A stretch of 6,303 bases of DNA from an uncultured Eubacteriales bacterium. Lineage in GTDB: Bacteria > Bacillota_A > Clostridia > Oscillospirales > Oscillospiraceae. This document shows, one piece after another, positions 1 to 6,303 of this stretch. The notes under the pieces were generated by a model. That model saw only the letters and a list, made by a program, of their open reading frames with translations, made no database searches and had not been told where the DNA came from. The stretch spans positions 1 through 6,303 of the forward strand of contig CATKHE010000273.1 in the NCBI GenBank assembly GCA_949747935.1, written 5' to 3'. Both the position numbers and the translations under genes were made by a program. The stretch's first letter is position 1. Each line of letters begins with the position of its first letter.

Positions 1-554
1 CCTCCAAGGCTCCAGAGCGGCTCATCGATCTGGCGGACAAGATTCTGCTGGCCTGGCGGGGCTACACCGATGAGGAGGCCTTCATCTTCGCCGAGACCGG
101 CGGCGAGCCCCACAACACCATCACCCCCATCGCCCGGATGCGGGACGGTAAATTTGAGCTGGACCTGGTCCTCCGGAACAACATCACCACCGAGGAGCAC
201 CCTCTGGGGGTCTACCACCCCCACAGTGAGCTCCACCACATCAAAAAAGAGAACATCGGCCTGATCGAGGTGATGGGCCTGGCGGTTCTGCCCGCCCGGC
301 TGAAGGAGGAGCTGGCCGCGGTGGCCGACGCTCTGGCCTCCGGCTCCGATCTGCGGGCCGGCGAGCTCACCGCCAAGCACGCCGATTGGGCGGAAGCTTT
401 CGCCAAAAACTATACCATCACCCCAGATAACGCCTTGGATATCGTCCACAGGGAGACCGGGCTGGTCTTTGCCCAGGTGCTGGAACACGCCGGGGTCTAC
501 AAGCGCACCCCAGAGGGCAGAGAGGCCTTCCTGCGCTTCCTGTGCACTGTCTGA
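1..554 (+). CDS. galT: UDP-glucose--hexose-1-phosphate uridylyltransferase, class II (C-terminal part)
   Basis: This is the 3' part of a gene that starts before the window; the first complete codon is at base 3, and 183 residues are visible before the TGA at 552-554. The enzyme is cytoplasmic and swaps UMP between UDP-glucose and galactose-1-phosphate in the Leloir pathway of galactose use. The recognisable blocks are HNTITPIAR (about residues 36-44 of the fragment), then HPLGVYHPHSELHHIKKENI and the following GLIEVMGLAVLPARL, all typical of the C-terminal domain of Firmicutes class II GalT (usually about 490-500 residues in total). The class II active-site histidine motif belongs to the N-terminal domain and is outside the window, so catalytic integrity cannot be judged. 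The frame is open with no defect. The gene converges on the minus-strand glycosyltransferase with 6 bases between stops, and no terminator of its own is visible in that gap. Confidence 0.95.
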   Translation, partial: SKAPERLIDLADKILLAWRGYTDEEAFIFAETGGEPHNTITPIARMRDGKFELDLVLRNNITTEEHPLGVYHPHSELHHIKKENIGLIEVMGLAVLPARLKEELAAVADALASGSDLRAGELTAKHADWAEAFAKNYTITPDNALDIVHRETGLVFAQVLEHAGVYKRTPEGREAFLRFLCTV

Positions 555-560
555 CTGCTG

Positions 561-1655
561 TCACATGCCGGGGAGCGCGCGCTCTATCATCCGCAGATTG
601 TCTTTCAGCCGCCCGTTTCCGGGCTCCAGCTCCAGAGCTTTTTTGACCTCCTTCAGCGCCTCCTGCCAGGCTCCGGTGTGGTAGAAGGCAATGGAGCGCA
701 GGTCATGGGGCAGGCTCCCCCAGGCCGCGGCCTCGCAGATATAGCTCCTGGGCCGGACGGTGATGGCCAGGGCGCAGGCGGTAAAATAAAGCACACCCTC
801 CCACTCACCTTGATCGTAGAGCATGAGCGCCAAATCCATATATGGTTCCCGCAGATGTGGGGCCTCAGTGATGGCCCGGAGAAACCAGTCTCGGGCCTGA
901 GCCGGGTCCCCCTTATTCCAATATGCCTTGGCGATGTACCGCATGGAGGCCGCCCGCTCGTCCCGCCAGACGGCAGTGGGCATGGCCAGATGGCTCTTCA
1001 GCGTCCGGATGCAGTCGTCCCACCGGCCCCAGTACATGTATTCCCGGCCCAGATAGTGGACGTTGCGGTCGTCCTCCGGCTCCTCCCGAACGGAGAGCTC
1101 CAGCAGCGGCAGATACTGTTCCCGGGACTTGGCGGGGTCCGGGTGGTGGTCCAGCTGGATGCCCTCCGCGCTGATCATAGGGCCCGGCCGACCCTCTCCC
1201 ACCCACTTGAGCACCTCGTGAACGGGGTGGACCCACTGATAGCCCCGGCGGGCGTGAATTTTCTCATACCAGAACACCACGCCCTCGGAGCCGTCGGCGT
1301 TGAAGGACCAGGTGTACCGATAGGACGCCTGTCCCGCTCCCGGGACCCATACCTTTTCCAGTTCCTCCCTCCAGCCCGGGTGAAAGACCTCGTCCAGATC
1401 GGTACAGACACAGATGTCTGTATCCTCGGGCACCAACTCCAGAGAGCGGTTTCGGGCCGTGTCAAAACGCCAGGGGGAGAATTTCTCTACTGTTACCTGA
1501 GCCCCGCGGGTCCGGAGCTTTTCCACCGTCTTGTCCTCAGAGCCGGTATCCAGTACCACTACCTGGTCTGCCTCAGACATGGAATCCATCCAGCGGTCCG
1601 CGAACCGCTCCTCATTTTTACAGATGGCGTAGACGCATACCTTGTACCGCTTCAT
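561..1655 (-). CDS. Family 2 glycosyltransferase with C-terminal TPR repeats
   Basis: This 364-residue protein has an N-terminal GT-A fold of family 2 type. Residues 5-15 form the first strand ending in ICKNE. VVVLDTGSEDKT (32-43) is the nucleotide-sugar binding strand with D36. DTARNRSLELV (65-75) leads into the metal-binding D-x-D motif D86-L87-D88-E89. Residues about 195-348 read as four TPR-like helical pairs (for example AKAYWNKGDPAQARDWFLRA), which usually bind a protein partner. There is no signal peptide or membrane segment, so it should act in the cytoplasm. GT2 plus TPR is the layout of peptide/protein glycosyltransferases such as SunS-like enzymes; sugar and acceptor are not readable here. 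ATG 1655 is preceded by AAAAGGAGG with 6 bases spacing. The gene follows the collagen-like gene on the same strand after 58 bases and shows no promoter of its own, so I infer co-transcription and that the Thr-rich collagen is its acceptor. A lipid- or cell-wall-directed role remains possible. Confidence 0.88.
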   Translation of the reverse strand: MKRYKVCVYAICKNEERFADRWMDSMSEADQVVVLDTGSEDKTVEKLRTRGAQVTVEKFSPWRFDTARNRSLELVPEDTDICVCTDLDEVFHPGWREELEKVWVPGAGQASYRYTWSFNADGSEGVVFWYEKIHARRGYQWVHPVHEVLKWVGEGRPGPMISAEGIQLDHHPDPAKSREQYLPLLELSVREEPEDDRNVHYLGREYMYWGRWDDCIRTLKSHLAMPTAVWRDERAASMRYIAKAYWNKGDPAQARDWFLRAITEAPHLREPYMDLALMLYDQGEWEGVLYFTACALAITVRPRSYICEAAAWGSLPHDLRSIAFYHTGAWQEALKEVKKALELEPGNGRLKDNLRMIERALPGM

Positions 1656-1670
1656 AGTGAACCTCCTTTT

Positions 1671-1704
1671 AAAAGACCGGCGCTCCCGGATTGGGAGCGC
1701 CGAC
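1671..1704 (-). terminator. Hairpin with short U-run between collagen-like gene and glycosyltransferase (attenuator-like)
   Basis: On the minus strand a perfect 10-bp GC-rich stem (1702-1693 with 1687-1678, 5-base loop 1692-1688) can be extended by two G-U pairs. It is followed at once by TCTTTTA. It lies 11 bases after the collagen-like stop codon. The U-run is only four bases and runs directly into the AAAAGGAGG ribosome site of the glycosyltransferase, so termination is probably incomplete. I infer a partial terminator, or an mRNA 3' stabiliser, that lets the structural protein be made in excess over its enzyme. Confidence 0.7.
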
Positions 1705-1713
1705 TGTCTGAAA

Positions 1714-2370
1714 TCAGGTTGCGATGACGCCGGCGGTCCTCAGAGAGGCCAGCAGTTCATTGATCTTGTCCACGAGCTCTGGCGTTCCAGCGCCTGGATC
1801 CTCGTCAGCCACAGCAGGACCAGGAGTAATTGCGGGACCGGCAGGGCCGGTGGGACCAGCAGGACCGGCAGGACCCTGGGCGCCTGTGGCCCCGGTTGCG
1901 CCCGCTGCTCCGGCAGGGCCGGTGGGACCAATGGGGCCGGCAGGGCCCTGAGCGCCTGTGGCCCCGGTTGCGCCTGTTGCTCCGGCAGGGCCGGTGGGAC
2001 CAGCGGGACCAGCAGGACCTTGGGCCCCGGTTGCCCCAGTGGCACCGGTGGAACCAGGAATACCCTGAGGACCAGTGGGGCCGACAGCTCCGTTAGGCCC
2101 CGGATATCCCTGAGGGCCTGTTGGGCCTATCGGCCCGGTAGGGCCGACGCCGGGGCAGGGAGGGAAGGGACCCGGAATAGGAGGACAGGTAGAGCAGGGA
2201 GGTACAGGGGGCAGAGTAGGACAGCCGCAGCTGGAATCACATCCGCAGTTTGTATTGCAGCCGCACCCTGTATTACATCCGCAGCCTGTATTGCAGCCAC
2301 ACCCGGTCAGGTGGGCCACAACGCCGTCACGACTGCTCTGCTCCCAATCAGAAGCATAGTATCTTCTCAT
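1714..2370 (-). CDS. Cysteine-rich collagen-like protein (Gly-X-Thr rich, BclA-like surface protein)
   Basis: This 218-residue protein has four parts. Residues 1-22 are polar, with no signal peptide. Residues 23-52 are five hexads of the form xCGCxx (GCGCNT three times, then NCGCDS and SCGCPT). Residues 53-75 are a proline-rich linker with three more cysteines, giving 13 in all, none after residue 72. Residues 76-180 are 35 uninterrupted Gly-X-Y triplets, 14 with Thr in the Y place. A linker then leads to a C-terminal hydrophobic helix (about 197-218). Gly-X-Y runs fold as collagen triple helices, and Gly-X-Thr bacterial collagens such as BclA are O-glycosylated. Lack of a signal peptide plus many cysteines fits a spore coat or exosporium protein made in the mother cell; that is inference. 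I chose ATG 2370 because AAAGGAG sits 6 bases upstream; an in-frame ATG at 2415 has no such site. It is probably the first gene of a unit with the glycosyltransferase. A phage-type structural origin is the main alternative. Confidence 0.9.
1840..2055 (-). repeat. Three tandem 72-bp units in the collagen domain
   Basis: Residues 106-177 consist of three consecutive 24-residue units, each eight Gly-X-Y triplets of the plan Gx[13 protein letters not shown] GPx GPT GPA (third unit begins GAA). The units correspond to 2055-1984, 1983-1912 and 1911-1840. Units differ by single residues (S107/A131/A155, T108/T132/A156, A122/I146/A170) and by silent changes. Such in-frame repeats change copy number by slippage or recombination, as known for bclA alleles. 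The whole triple-helix region covers 1831-2145. Confidence 0.88.
2215..2304 (-). repeat. Five 18-bp tandem repeats encoding Cys-Gly-Cys hexads
   Basis: Residues 23-52 of the collagen-like protein are five six-residue repeats with Cys-Gly-Cys at fixed places: [30 protein letters not shown]. Codons alternate between TGC and TGT and between GGC and GGA, so the DNA copies have diverged while the cysteine spacing has been kept. This suggests selection on the protein pattern, either for disulfide cross-linking or for metal binding. Confidence 0.88.
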
Positions 2371-2399
2371 AGCGCGCTCCTTTGCGTTGAAGTAATGGT

Positions 2400-2414
2400 T
2401 GTGGCAGTGCCACA
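2400..2414. promoter_or_regulatory. 15-bp inverted repeat upstream of the collagen-like gene
   Basis: TGTGGCAGTGCCACA is a perfect palindrome with 7-base arms around one central base. Two more G-C pairs (2397-2398 with 2416-2417) lie beyond one mismatch. It sits between the collagen-like start codon and the candidate -10 element, about where transcription would begin. It could be an operator for a dimeric regulator or a stem-loop at the 5' end of the transcript; the sequence alone does not decide. Confidence 0.4.
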
Positions 2415-2418
2415 TCCC

Positions 2419-2445
2419 ATACTATGACCGCCGCTGTCTTTGGTG
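2419..2445 (-). promoter_or_regulatory. Candidate sporulation-type promoter for the collagen-like gene
   Basis: The minus strand reads CAC (2445-2443), 16 bases, then CATAGTAT (2426-2419). This resembles the sigma-K pattern (AC, about 16 bases, CATAnnnTA, lacking the last A) and more loosely the sigma-E -10. No good sigma-A promoter is visible on this strand between the two divergent genes. The motif is short and GC-poor sequence is rare here, so chance is possible. Confidence 0.3.
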
Positions 2446-2453
2446 CGCAGGTC

Positions 2454-2482
2454 TTTACATCGGCGGCAGTTTCCTCTATAAT
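2454..2482 (+). promoter_or_regulatory. Consensus sigma-A promoter for the 86-residue hypothetical gene
   Basis: TTTACA (2454-2459) and a perfect TATAAT (2477-2482) are separated by 17 bases. The expected start of transcription is about 2488-2490, which leaves a leader of only about 15-17 bases before the TTG start at 2505. The ribosome site therefore lies at the very 5' end of the mRNA. Confidence 0.75.
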
Positions 2483-2504
2483 GGGGAGGAAGGAGGCGGC
2501 AGCG

Positions 2505-2765
2505 TTGAACAAGATTGAGATCCCCACCCTGCTTTTCTGGGAAAATGGAAACAGCTGGTATGGCAGCCTGGGCAACGCCCGGTTTTTTATCAAGCCAGAG
2601 GTCCCCGAGGGGACAGAGGAAAAGCAGCTCACCGTCCGGCTCTGGCGGGGGCCGCTGGCCATGGAGCTGAGTGAAATCATGGCCTCCTCCACCTTTTCCG
2701 TCTCCCAGGAGGGGCTGTCCCAAGCCTCTGCCTGGCTGGAGGAACGGGCCGCAGAGTTGAATTAA
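2505..2765 (+). CDS. Small hypothetical protein (86 aa), TTG start
   Basis: I do not recognise the family. The protein is soluble, with no signal peptide or membrane segment, and has no cysteine. Residues 4-35 and 42-52 look like beta strands (aromatic blocks FWENGNSWYG and ARFFI, then TVRLWRGP). Residues 51-60 and 68-85 look like helices, the last acidic and amphipathic (SAWLEERAAEL). I chose TTG 2505 because GGAGGAAGGAGG (2485-2496) ends 8 bases before it and because the promoter -10 element occupies 2477-2482. The in-frame ATGs at 2424 and 2481 lie upstream of or inside that promoter and cannot be used from it. The gene diverges from the collagen-like gene and ends against the terminator at 2764-2800, so it appears to be monocistronic. 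Existence is well supported by promoter, ribosome site and codon use; function is unknown. Confidence 0.78.
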   Translation: MNKIEIPTLLFWENGNSWYGSLGNARFFIKPEVPEGTEEKQLTVRLWRGPLAMELSEIMASSTFSVSQEGLSQASAWLEERAAELN

Positions 2766-2800
2766 AAAACTCCCATCCGCTGCGGCGCGGATGGGAGTTT
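2764..2800 (-). terminator. Intrinsic terminator of the antiporter gene, possibly bidirectional
   Basis: A perfect 14-bp stem (2767-2780 with 2787-2800, 6-base loop 2781-2786) lies 7 bases past the antiporter stop codon. On the minus strand it runs into six Ts (2769-2764), a strong intrinsic terminator. On the plus strand it starts one base after the small gene's stop codon, but the following tract is only TTTGACTT, so it should work less well in that direction. Confidence 0.88.
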
Positions 2801-2807
2801 GACTTGC

Positions 2808-3989
2808 TTACGCCAGTTCAGGACCTCTGGAGATGGCCAGTTTCAGCAGGACAGGGGTCAGCAGGGCGGAGGCGATCACAGCCAGTACAATGGCGGGCAG
2901 GATTACCGGGTCGATCATTCCGGCGCTGATGCCTCTCTGAGCCACCATCAGGGCCACCTCACTCCGGGCCACCATGCCGATGCCTATCACCAAAGACTGG
3001 TGGCGGCTCATACGGCAGGCCAGCCCACCCAGACCACAGCCCAAAACCTTAGACAGCACGGCGGCCAGCACCAGCAGCAGGGCAAAGACTAGGATATCGG
3101 CGTTCATGTCTCGCAGGTTGGTCTTCATACCCACGCCAGCGAAGAACACCGGGGTAAACACCATGTAAGAGGTGATGGTAAACTTTTTTGCCACGAACTT
3201 CCGGGCCTTGGTCACGTTGCACAAAATCAGTCCGGCGAAATAGGCTCCTGTGATATCGGCCACGCCGAACCACACCTCAGAGCAGTAGGCCATCAGCAGA
3301 CAGAAGGCCAGCGACCACACCGCTACCCGGCGGCTGTGCCAGTGCTCCTCGGCCACATAGGTGAAGATCCGGCGGACCACCAGCCCAACTGCCAGCACAA
3401 ATGCGAAAAACATGACGATGTGGACCAGAACCAGCACCGGGTCGGAATCCCCGGAACTGAAGGCGCTGAGGACGGACAGCACCACAATGCCGATAATATC
3501 GTCAATGAGGGCGGCGCTGAGGAGGGTAGTTCCTGTTCTGGTTTTCAGCTTGCCCATCTCGTTCAGGGTCTCCACCGTGATAGACACCGAGGTGGCGGAG
3601 AACACCGAACCCATAAAGGCGGATTTGAGCAGGTTATAGGCGGTCAGTTCCCCGCCGCAGAAGAAAAAGAAGTACAGCCCGCCGCACAGGAACAGGGGCA
3701 CAAATACCCCTAGCACGGCGATCAGGCCGGCCTGAAGTCCGGTCTCCTTCAGTTCCTTCATGTCAGTGTCGATGCCGGCGGTGAACATGAGCATGATCAC
3801 GCCGATCTCCGCTGCCTTCACCAGGAAGTCGGTGCTCTGAAGCACCCCAAACCCGCTGGGGCCCATGATGATGCCCGCCAGCAGCGCCCCCACCACCTGG
3901 GGCAGGTGGACATGCTCCGTGAGCAGGCCGAACACTTTGGTAGACAGCAGAATCACCGCCAGCAGCAATAGATATGTATAAGATTCCAT
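2808..3989 (-). CDS. CPA2-family cation:proton antiporter (Na+/H+ exchanger)
   Basis: This 393-residue membrane protein is almost wholly hydrophobic, with about 11-13 transmembrane segments, and matches the Na_H_Exchanger fold. It should exchange Na+ or K+ for H+ across the cytoplasmic membrane. Typical blocks are LPQVVGALLAGIIMGPSGFG (29-48), LMFTAGIDTDMKEL (67-80), ALIDDIIGIVVLSVL (160-174) and GMVARSEVALMVAQRG (338-353). The Asp pair D163-D164 in the crossed-helix region is the ion-binding ND/DD position; DD is the pattern of electrogenic NapA-like members. The protein ends soon after the last segment, with no RCK/TrkA-N or USP domain, so it is not a full KefB/KefC. ATG 3989 follows AAGGGAG at 6 bases spacing. 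It is transcribed alone from the consensus promoter at 4037-4065 and stops at the terminator at 2764-2800. Substrate ion cannot be told from sequence; GerN/NapA-like exchange is the nearest guess. Confidence 0.92.
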   Translation of the reverse strand: MESYTYLLLLAVILLSTKVFGLLTEHVHLPQVVGALLAGIIMGPSGFGVLQSTDFLVKAAEIGVIMLMFTAGIDTDMKELKETGLQAGLIAVLGVFVPLFLCGGLYFFFFCGGELTAYNLLKSAFMGSVFSATSVSITVETLNEMGKLKTRTGTTLLSAALIDDIIGIVVLSVLSAFSSGDSDPVLVLVHIVMFFAFVLAVGLVVRRIFTYVAEEHWHSRRVAVWSLAFCLLMAYCSEVWFGVADITGAYFAGLILCNVTKARKFVAKKFTITSYMVFTPVFFAGVGMKTNLRDMNADILVFALLLVLAAVLSKVLGCGLGGLACRMSRHQSLVIGIGMVARSEVALMVAQRGISAGMIDPVILPAIVLAVIASALLTPVLLKLAISRGPELA

Positions 3990-4012
3990 CTCGTTCTCCC
4001 TTCAAAATAACA

Positions 4013-4028
4013 GCCCGGCTCTCCGGGC
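4013..4028 (-). promoter_or_regulatory. Small GC hairpin in the antiporter leader
   Basis: The minus-strand leader can form a 6-bp all-GC stem (GCCCGG with CCGGGC) around a 4-base loop, beginning within a few bases of the predicted transcription start and followed by TGTTATTTT. It may protect the 5' end of the mRNA. It is too short to be a riboswitch. Confidence 0.4.
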
Positions 4029-4036
4029 GTCCCTGT

Positions 4037-4065
4037 ATTATACGCACCGGCCCCTGGGAAGTCAA
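4037..4065 (-). promoter_or_regulatory. Consensus sigma-A promoter for the antiporter gene
   Basis: On the minus strand TTGACT (4065-4060) and a perfect TATAAT (4042-4037) are spaced by 17 bases. Transcription should start near 4030, giving a leader of about 40 bases before ATG 3989. The near-consensus match suggests steady expression. Confidence 0.82.
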
Positions 4066-4070
4066 TGGTC

Positions 4071-4096
4071 AAACTGTCCGGAAAAGACGGTTTTTT
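4071..4096 (+). terminator. Possible weak plus-strand terminator upstream of polA
   Basis: On the plus strand an 8-bp stem with one G-U pair (4071-4078 with 4086-4093, 7-base loop) merges into a run of six Ts (4091-4096). It resembles a weak intrinsic terminator, but no plus-strand gene ends nearby. If real, it would stop plus-strand read-through running antisense across the antiporter and so insulate polA. Confidence 0.35.
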
Positions 4097-4097
4097 C

Positions 4098-4126
4098 TTG
4101 TCCAATGGGGTCAAAAATGATATACT
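4098..4126 (+). promoter_or_regulatory. Sigma-A promoter for polA with extended -10
   Basis: TTGTCC (4098-4103) and TATACT (4121-4126) are spaced by 17 bases, and TGA just before the -10 gives an extended -10 element. Transcription should start near 4133, leaving a leader of about 23 bases. The -35 is 32 bases from the divergent antiporter -35, so the two promoters may compete. Confidence 0.75.
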
Positions 4127-4155
4127 ATACTCAGACTTTTAAAGGAGCTTCCGCT

Positions 4156-6303
4156 ATGAAAAAACTGATGGTCATCGACGGCAATTCTATTGTCAACCGG
4201 GCCTTTTACGGGGTCAGTCAAAATCTGTCCACCCGGGAGGGCCAGCCCACCAACGCCATATTCGGCTTTCTGAACATTCTGAACAAGCTGCTGGAGGAGG
4301 ACAGGCCCGACGCCCTATGCGTCACCTTCGACCGTTCCGCCCCCACCTTCCGCCACCAGGCCTATTCAGAGTACAAGGCCAACCGCAAGGGGATGCCCGA
4401 CGAGCTTGCCAGTCAGATGCCTCTTTTAAAGAAGGTGCTGTCTGCTCTGAACGTGCCCATGTACGAGCTGGACGGCTGGGAGGCTGACGACCTGCTGGGC
4501 ACCATCGCCCGACTGGACGAAGGGGCGGGCTGGGCCACCGCCATCGTCACCGGGGACAAGGACGCCCTCCAGCTGGTGACCGAGACCACCACCGTCAAGC
4601 TGGTGTCCACCCGTATGGGGAGAACCACCACCCGGGACGTGACCCCGGAGAGCTTCCGGGAGGAGTACGGCTTCGAGCCCAAAAGCATCATCGACCTGAA
4701 GGCCCTCATGGGAGACAGCTCTGACAACTACCCCGGCGTAAAGGGAGTGGGGGAAAAGACGGCCATGGCCCTGATCCGGCTCTACCACACCATCGCCCAT
4801 CTCTACGACCACATGCCGGAGATCTGCTCCGCGCCCGACACCCCCGCCAAGCCCGGCCTTGTCAAAAAGCTGGAGGAGGGCAGGGAGAGCGCCCTGCTGT
4901 CCCACGACCTGGCCACCATTCGCACCGACGCCCCTATCGACTTCAAGCCGGAGGACAACCTGCGCCGGGATCCGGACAACAACAGGCTGTACCAGCTCTT
5001 CCTGGACCTGGAATTTGCCAAGCTCATCGACAAGTACGGCCTCACCGCCCCCCAGGGGGAGACAGCGGAGGAGGCCCCTGTCTTTGAGTGTACCTGCACC
5101 AGCGAAATTGTGGAAAGCCAGGCCCGGATGGAGGAGCTGCTGGAGCTGTGGCGAAGGAAGGGCTGCGTAGACGCGCTGGCTCTGCCCGGTTTGGATATCG
5201 TGTGCGTGGAGTGGCAGGAGGGGGAATCGGACAGCCATGCCGCCCTGTTTTTCGCCGGCAGGCTGGACTGCCACAACGACTTTCTGCGGGGCTTTTTCTC
5301 CGACCCCACCATCAAAAAGGCGGCCCACGGGGTGAAAAACCTGTGCCGCGCCCTGTTGGCTGAGGGGATCGCCCCCGCCGGCTTCGTCTTTGACACCGAG
5401 GTGGCCGCCTACCTCCTGGCCCCCACTGACGGCAGCTACGAGCTGGAAAAGCTGGCGCTGACCTACTTCAAGACCCAGGCCGACCCGGCCTCCGTCTATC
5501 TGGACGAGGGGGCCTTTGGGCCGCTGTCCGACCCGGCGGCCCCTATGGCGGCTCTCATGTCCCACTGCGCCTGGATCGGCGCGCTGCATGAGGTGCTGGA
5601 AAAGCGGCTCAAGGAGCTGGGCATGTGGGAGCTGTACGAAAAAGTGGAGCTGCCCCTGTGCCCCGTACTGGCCGAGATGGAGGCCGAGGGCTTCCTCATT
5701 GACCGGGGGGCGCTGGCGGAGTTTGGCGACATGCTGTCCGGGCGGATTGACGAGGTCCAGAAAACCATCTATGCCCTGGCTGGAGAGGACACCTTTAATA
5801 TTAACTCCACCCAACAGCTAGGTGCAGTTCTCTTTGAGAAGTTGGGCCTGCCTCCGGTGAAAAAGACCAAGACGGGCTACTCCACCAAGGCCGATGTGCT
5901 GGAAAAGCTGCAAGGCCAGCACCCCATCATCGACAGCATCCTGGAGTACCGCCAGCTCACCAAGCTGAAGTCTACCTATGTGGATGGCCTGGGCAAGATG
6001 ATCGGCCCCGACGGGCGCATCCACACCTCCTTCCAGAACACTGTCACCGCCACCGGACGGCTTTCCTCCACCGAGCCCAACCTGCAAAATATCCCAGTCC
6101 GCACCGAGCTGGGAGCGGAGTTAAGGAAAATGTTCGCCGTCCCCGCCGGAAAGGTGCTGGTGGACGCCGACTACTCCCAAATCGAGCTGCGCCTGCTGGC
6201 CCATATGGCCGGGGACCAGGCCATGATTGACGGCTTCAAAAGCGGCGAGGACATCCACACCGTTACCGCCTCCCAGGTCTTCGGCGTACCGGTGGAGGAG
6301 GTC
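4156..6303 (+). CDS. polA: DNA polymerase I (5' part of gene; runs off the window)
   Basis: 716 residues are open from ATG 4156 to the last base; AAAGGAG lies 8 bases upstream. The enzyme removes RNA primers and fills gaps in replication and repair. Residues 1 to about 295 are the 5' nuclease: FDRSAPTFRHQAYSEYKANR (58-77), metal ligands in E109-A-D111-D112, TGDKD (132-136), and GDSSDNYPGVKGVGEKTA (186-203), which carries D187, D190 and the helix-hairpin-helix. Residues about 308-490 occupy the place of the 3'-5' exonuclease but lack its acids: no D-x-E in the first motif (VFECTCTSE at 309-317), and L396 aligns with the E. coli D424 position. Residues about 495-716 begin the polymerase: TGRLSSTEPNLQNIPVR (633-649) and motif A ADYSQIELR with D672. 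The fingers O-helix and final HDE motif lie beyond the window, roughly 150-180 residues. As in Bacillus-type Pol I, proofreading should be absent. Confidence 0.97.
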   Translation, partial: MKKLMVIDGNSIVNRAFYGVSQNLSTREGQPTNAIFGFLNILNKLLEEDRPDALCVTFDRSAPTFRHQAYSEYKANRKGMPDELASQMPLLKKVLSALNVPMYELDGWEADDLLGTIARLDEGAGWATAIVTGDKDALQLVTETTTVKLVSTRMGRTTTRDVTPESFREEYGFEPKSIIDLKALMGDSSDNYPGVKGVGEKTAMALIRLYHTIAHLYDHMPEICSAPDTPAKPGLVKKLEEGRESALLSHDLATIRTDAPIDFKPEDNLRRDPDNNRLYQLFLDLEFAKLIDKYGLTAPQGETAEEAPVFECTCTSEIVESQARMEELLELWRRKGCVDALALPGLDIVCVEWQEGESDSHAALFFAGRLDCHNDFLRGFFSDPTIKKAAHGVKNLCRALLAEGIAPAGFVFDTEVAAYLLAPTDGSYELEKLALTYFKTQADPASVYLDEGAFGPLSDPAAPMAALMSHCAWIGALHEVLEKRLKELGMWELYEKVELPLCPVLAEMEAEGFLIDRGALAEFGDMLSGRIDEVQKTIYALAGEDTFNINSTQQLGAVLFEKLGLPPVKKTKTGYSTKADVLEKLQGQHPIIDSILEYRQLTKLKSTYVDGLGKMIGPDGRIHTSFQNTVTATGRLSSTEPNLQNIPVRTELGAELRKMFAVPAGKVLVDADYSQIELRLLAHMAGDQAMIDGFKSGEDIHTVTASQVFGVPVEEV

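Follow-up and report, generated by a model that had tools for sequence, protein, structure and literature searches.

A conserved collagen–glycosyltransferase gene pair in Oscillospiraceae, its sporulation-type promoter motif, and split collagen genes in its relatives

The gene pair and its conservation

The subject of this survey is a pair of neighbouring genes on a 6,303-nucleotide stretch of DNA from an uncultured Eubacteriales bacterium of the family Oscillospiraceae (assembly GCA_949747935.1, contig CATKHE010000273.1, positions 1 to 6,303), referred to below as the window. The upstream gene encodes a Gly-X-Thr-rich collagen-like protein, and the downstream gene, on the same (minus) strand and separated by 58 nt (1656-1713), a family 2 glycosyltransferase (GT2) with C-terminal tetratricopeptide repeats (TPR). 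A first-pass annotation, made from the letters alone, had described this arrangement, and both open reading frames (ORFs) lie where it placed them; a recount of the repeat gave the same figure, Thr in the Y position of 14 of the 35 triplets, with Thr in X in none. The collagen is matched by the Pfam model Collagen (E 1.2e-16) and the enzyme by Glycos_transf_2 (E 7.7e-6; 26.4 bits, cut-off 23.3) and TPR_2 (E 1.9e-11).

The pairing recurs throughout the close relatives. When one genome per species was scanned with the enzyme, 122 relatives were confirmed, and 80 loci, 67-87% identical, were retained. The rule for a pair, a same-strand ORF that contains 10 or more consecutive Gly-X-Y triplets and ends no more than 600 nt upstream of the enzyme, holds at 71 of these 80; a further eight carry a remnant there, a less extended Gly-X-Y repeat together with a collagen C-terminus (L013, L018, L021, L027, L047, L050, L062, L078), so that 79/80 have a collagen gene or remnant upstream. 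At L074, the ninth exception to the rule, the contig end falls inside the collagen C-terminal domain. Among 485 other genes of these loci (ORFs of at least 150 amino acids with a ribosome-site-like start, collagens and enzyme excluded), a nearly identical rule picked out 2, which rules out chance as the cause of the pairing; the co-occurrence check proposed in the first-pass annotation thus turned out in favour of the pair. At no more than 16/80 loci did any other neighbour from the window turn up, so the pair persists as its context changes, although many of the contigs are short. A search of a protein database found 7996 relatives of the enzyme among 7998 scored candidates; these carry no gene context and were put to no further use.

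Beyond the close clade the adjacency is not universal. Among 147 genomes of the same order, the enzyme profile has a match at E ≤ 1e-10 in 33 and one at E < 1e-30 in 17; eight of the 17 strong matches have a collagen gene or remnant directly upstream (G001, G008, G009, G010, G098, G114, G072, G082), the first four of which also belong to the 80 loci. Seven of 21 loci with weaker matches (L094-L114) adjoin a collagen ORF (L099, L101, L105, L107, L109, L110, L113, the last divergently oriented); the other 14 have none beside them. A tree built from 95 enzymes places the window in a clade of 28 rows, all of them paired, and groups six of the seven unpaired rows together; it contains several long branches, its bootstrap support had not settled, and all 80 loci are labelled paired in it, including L074, which shows just a C-terminal domain. 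At L088 (genome G020) the enzyme occurs in two tandem copies with no collagen gene beside them.

Table 1. Features of the gene pair in the window
Feature	Position	Strand	Basis
Collagen-like protein gene, 218 amino acids, intact	1714..2370	-	ORF reading, Pfam Collagen, Gly-X-Y count
GT2-TPR glycosyltransferase gene, 364 amino acids	561..1655	-	Pfam, alignment, structure model
Cys-rich N-terminal repeats (GCGCNT hexads)	2221..2304	-	Sequence, homologues
Putative acceptor region: 35 uninterrupted Gly-X-Y triplets, 14 with Thr in Y	1831..2145	-	Triplet count
Short C-terminal end, putative helical trimerisation end	1717..1830	-	End motif
sigma-K/sigma-E type -10 element CATAGTAT	2419..2426	-	Motif scan of collagen upstream regions
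sigma-K type -35 element GCACC (AC 16 nt before CATA)	2442..2446	-	Motif; sigma-K/E distinction from excerpts of PMC3789822
Hairpin in the collagen-enzyme gap, putative partial terminator	1678..1702	-	z -4.4 against dinucleotide shuffles

The collagen ORF listed in Table 1 starts at an ATG preceded by AAGGAG; a longer reading from ATG 2415 is also open and is disfavoured because no ribosome site was seen before that codon. The flanks hold the 3' end of galT (3-554, +), a CPA2-type antiporter, polA (named by eye, and also used as a tblastn query on the related loci) and a small divergent ORF. The divergent ORF (2424-2765, +) lies beside the collagen gene and may really start at TTG 2505; a near-consensus sigma-70 site, TTTACA-17-TATAAT, is found at 2454-2482, Pfam and NCBIfam scans of the ORF gave no match, and its relatives occur at 15/80 loci, not always adjoining the collagen gene.

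Collagen, promoter motif and hairpin

The collagens paired with the enzyme are rich in Thr at the Y position (mean fraction 0.54, range 0.27-0.82, 66 proteins) and have almost no Lys or Arg there. In 19 comparison collagens the mean is 0.21 (0-0.74), a difference with p 1e-6 if kinship is ignored; 20 such proteins had been picked by hand from the listed matches, all in genomes where the enzyme profile found nothing at E ≤ 1e-10, and one of them, L137, dropped out for want of a usable ORF. Intact N-termini were examined in 36 cases; every one is Cys-rich (at least 5 Cys), and 10, all within the 28-row clade of the window, carry Cys hexads. Classified by end motif, the C-termini of the 71 paired collagens fall into helical (49), BclA_C-like (17) and other (5). 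Three of the 17 BclA_C-like ends were run against Pfam and matched BclA_C at E 2e-6 to 4e-5, below the Pfam cut-off, and a profile built from all 17 matched PDB 9h38 at E 1.4e-7, an entry described in excerpts of PMC11952670 as the C-terminal domain of F-BclA.

The likeness to BclA and F-BclA of Bacillus comprises the collagen stalk with Thr in Y and, in 17/71 paired collagens other than that of the window, a BclA_C-like C-terminal domain, whereas the window collagen differs by its short helical end and Cys-rich N-terminus. A BclA_C or C1q-like domain in the window's own collagen was considered and rejected, as only the Pfam Collagen model matches it at E up to 0.1. The suggestion in the first-pass annotation that the hexad N-terminus may mark a separate family has to be corrected in two respects: hexads are confined to 10/36 N-termini while Cys-richness is general, and the BclA_C-like ends make the family less separate from BclA than had been supposed. 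An LPPVPP (LPPxPP) stretch in the Pro/Cys-rich linker (2166-2220, -) was noticed by eye, and by eye it resembles the BclA exosporium leader.

The motif CATANNNT, which we take to be the -10 form of a sigma-K-type promoter, lies upstream of 36/38 collagen starts (shuffles: mean 2.5, maximum 7), and in 29 of these 36 regions ACC precedes it by 14-23 nt (shuffles: mean 4.0, maximum 11). The combined pattern AC-N15-17-CATANNNT is present in 32/37 collagen upstream regions against 4/484 other genes; L002, counted within the 38, was excluded from the 37 as a false start lacking the -10 element, and L035 has no -10 element either. The window collagen conforms to the sigma-K pattern, with AC about 16 nt before the CATANNNT element. 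According to excerpts of PMC3789822, the -35 elements of sigma-K and sigma-E are told apart by AC versus ATA; the same source places bclA1-3 of Clostridioides difficile under sigma-K control, as the promoter motif would suggest for the present collagen, and tabulates CD3350, a family 2 glycosyltransferase, with a ratio of 0.09.

The gap between the two genes folds into a hairpin in every case computed: z is below -2 in 70/70 collagen-enzyme gaps, while the hairpin sequence differs between clades. These are 70 of the 72 gaps, each compared with 40 mononucleotide shuffles, L030 and L067 (gaps over 160 nt) being left out. By terminating transcription in part, the hairpin may determine how much collagen is made relative to enzyme.

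Enzyme and proposed function

The structure model of the enzyme is of high quality (mean predicted local distance difference test score, pLDDT, 94.6). Its closest solved structures are SunS and ThuS, at only 15-17% identity, and its TPR half is also similar to consensus TPRs and to those of O-linked N-acetylglucosamine (O-GlcNAc) transferase. A DLD motif (residues 86-88) is invariant in 33/33 aligned enzyme sequences. SunS and ThuS S-glycosylate peptides, and we know of no collagen partner for either of them. In layout, with TPR repeats C-terminal to a GT2 catalytic domain, the enzyme is like the SgtA-type module, and alignment with an SgtA-type enzyme of another genome is nearly end to end at 25% identity. 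On the other hand, the present enzyme falls outside the SgtA-type sequence clade (start MxTISLCMIVKNEE), whose three rows in the tree sit on a long, supported branch; these rows were recognized by an N-terminus taken from a published primer (excerpts of PMC7157674). Among the 21 weaker-match enzymes, 17 were read at the N-terminus, and 14 of those start SgtA-like, SLCxIVxNE.

SgtA of C. difficile transfers β-O-GlcNAc from UDP-GlcNAc onto threonines of BclA3 collagen peptides in vitro, as described in excerpts of PMC7157674. The two systems share the order GT2 then TPR (358 amino acids in SgtA, 364 here), the position of the enzyme gene beside a collagen gene, and the Thr-bearing repeat, Gly-Pro-Thr in BclA3 (same excerpts), so the comparison drawn in the first-pass annotation holds. 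They differ in that the enzyme gene here lies downstream of the collagen gene with a hairpin between, while sgtA lies upstream of bclA3, and in the clade of the enzyme. With strong genomic support, the pair can be regarded as a probable further, conserved sporulation module of the SgtA–BclA3 kind.

Starting from the pairing, the promoter motif, the hairpin, the predicted fold and the Thr-rich acceptor region, we infer that the two genes probably form a sporulation operon, with the enzyme attaching O-linked sugar to the collagen ahead of its assembly; such glycosylation had been proposed in the first-pass annotation, and the pairing and the likeness to SgtA both argue for it. The function is proposed because SgtA, of the same layout, adds GlcNAc to BclA3 threonines, and sugar and acceptor are carried over from there by analogy. 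In the mother cell, sigma-K would transcribe the collagen gene; the hairpin would stop most transcripts, and only a smaller share would continue into the enzyme gene, so that structural protein is plentiful and enzyme scarce. The GT2-TPR enzyme would bind the unfolded collagen chain in the mother-cell cytoplasm and O-glycosylate the Y-position threonines of Gly-X-Thr, probably with GlcNAc from UDP-GlcNAc as SgtA does. The chain would then trimerise, and its Cys-rich N-terminus may cross-link it into the spore surface, resulting in a glycosylated filament.

Several points weigh against this assignment. The loci are related, so their counts are not independent. Among the 19 comparison collagens, three reach the Thr content of the paired ones (0.55-0.74), and the window collagen itself, at 0.40, lies below the paired mean. 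A link to sporulation sought through SpoIVA is uninformative, since 128/147 members of the order have this protein and its presence in 16/17 enzyme-bearing genomes says little. Finally, when the fragments G019 and G063 are set aside from the 17 strong matches, 7 of the remaining 15 (G047, G067, G083, G020, G107, G044, G016) have no adjacent collagen gene within the roughly 3 kb or less inspected on each side. The first-pass annotation had named homologues occurring mostly without a collagen neighbour as contrary evidence; this is not the situation in the close clade, but it is partly so in the order sample.

The unpaired members, together with the fact that the best structural matches, SunS and ThuS, modify peptides, could mean that the enzyme acts on another acceptor, a different spore protein or peptide, and that its place behind the collagen gene reflects shared timing only. 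G067 and G083, however, have a collagen gene about 5 kb away, and the near-obligate adjacency in the close clade and the enrichment of Thr in Y of the paired collagens make this alternative distinctly improbable. That the collagen is a surface adhesin of the vegetative cell, as bacterial collagens often are, appears very improbable: the top NCBIfam scores do belong to Scl/Lcl adhesins, yet far under their cut-offs (64.5 versus 325, 54.1 versus 500), no LPXTG motif or signal peptide was seen by eye, and both the sigma-K-type promoter at 32/37 collagen genes and the BclA_C-like ends in 17/71 speak against it. A less remote objection concerns the operon itself. The strong hairpin followed by GGTCTTTT may be a full terminator, with the enzyme gene transcribed from its own promoter, which would make the two genes neighbours without a single operon. 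We consider this unlikely, because a consensus scan of the gap gave neither a terminator nor a sigma-70-like site, CATANNNT occurs in only 4/71 enzyme upstream regions, and the collagen-enzyme gaps are mostly short.

Split collagen genes and significance

The most surprising observation of this survey is that the collagen gene is split in many relatives, although the window's own copy is intact. Judged by eye, 21 of the 80 collagen genes beside the enzyme are split, 39 intact and 20 not judgeable (L034, L044 and L069 were called intact, L018 split); the split genes occur in named isolates as well as in metagenome-assembled genomes, according to the record titles. Flintibacter muris DSM 110149 (L001, 4.3 kb) and Flavonifractor sp. 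An82 (L116, about 14 kb) are such isolates, while the cultured commensal Flavonifractor sp. An112 (L056) has an intact pair. The split genes start abruptly inside the repeat, with foreign DNA in front. Nine genomes show two collagen parts in view, 3.7 to 34 kb apart (L001, L002, L031, L078, L115, L116, L117-118, L119, L120, of which L117-118 is outside the 80), and in 9/9 both boundaries lie at a Thr codon in the same Gly-X-Y phase, so that the reading frame would run on intact if the parts were joined at these points. The boundary searches required equal phase and some stretches were chosen by hand; the codons at all nine boundaries were then inspected. The identity at the boundary amounts to about 8 bases at most (L002, L117-118) and at the least to hardly more than the AC of the codon (L120).

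A serine recombinase was found by tblastn in 10/21 split loci (L001, L002, L013, L014, L031, L042, L060, L067, L077, L078), often right at the junction, that of L001 being a distant one; the other 11 gave none by tblastn in the stretch examined. Five recombinases (L001, L002, L031, L116, L120) carry Resolvase, Recombinase and zinc-ribbon domains in Pfam, and one junction group has inverted arms, TATGCGCAAC or similar on the left and TTGTGCATAAAT or similar on the right. The intervening cargo varies and includes a chemoreceptor (L002), an SLH protein (L031) and a relaxase (L116). One ORF of L119, a longer stretch of the genome of L020, looks like a serine recombinase. In G004 (L115, 1230-12246) the only alaS match detected in the genome sits between two collagen pieces; the left piece itself starts with a junction, implying a third piece not seen, and two splits seem to have hit this collagen gene. 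For control of the recombinases by the mother cell the signal was not significant, with CATANNNT upstream of 6/13 (shuffled mean 2.6, maximum 7). A phage origin was not borne out: a viral-contig scan confirmed no relative of the L002 recombinase, and the 436 phage-collection records matching that of L013 are all below 60% identity (46.9% for the best of 10 listed), so that no phage was assigned.

Elements that interrupt sporulation genes are known, namely skin, SPbeta/spsM, gin/gerE and yin/yabG (excerpts of PMC5595907 for part of these). As in those systems, recombinase-bearing DNA in the split relatives interrupts a gene of mother-cell promoter type and leaves its parts in phase; the differences are that a collagen gene is hit here, in which many candidate sites resemble one another, and that the present case is known from assemblies alone. 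Collagen genes as targets of recombinase elements were not found in the open-licence literature among the matches listed, nor are they mentioned in the available parts of PMC10083194, PMC5595907 and PMC13188886. Our tentative reading, to which we give rather less than even credence, is that the collagen gene is a recurrent landing site of serine-recombinase elements, with Thr codons as attachment cores, and that excision in the mother cell only restores the gene. With the Thr codons of the repeat as cores, one gene would offer many attachment sites. Excision would be limited to the mother cell because the genome there is disposable, and the position of the only detected alaS between collagen pieces, as in G004, would be tolerable only under this restriction. 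The elements may instead simply insert, with no programmed excision, in which case the repeat would be no more than a target that tolerates them.

To our knowledge there is hardly any description of the spore surface of Oscillospiraceae, a family common in the gut. The gene pair offers a testable case of dedicated collagen glycosylation, with one enzyme, one acceptor and one promoter, and it is present in cultured isolates. Should sporulation indeed bring the parts of the split genes back together, a structural surface protein would join the targets of programmed DNA rearrangement, one whose own repeat offers many attachment sites.
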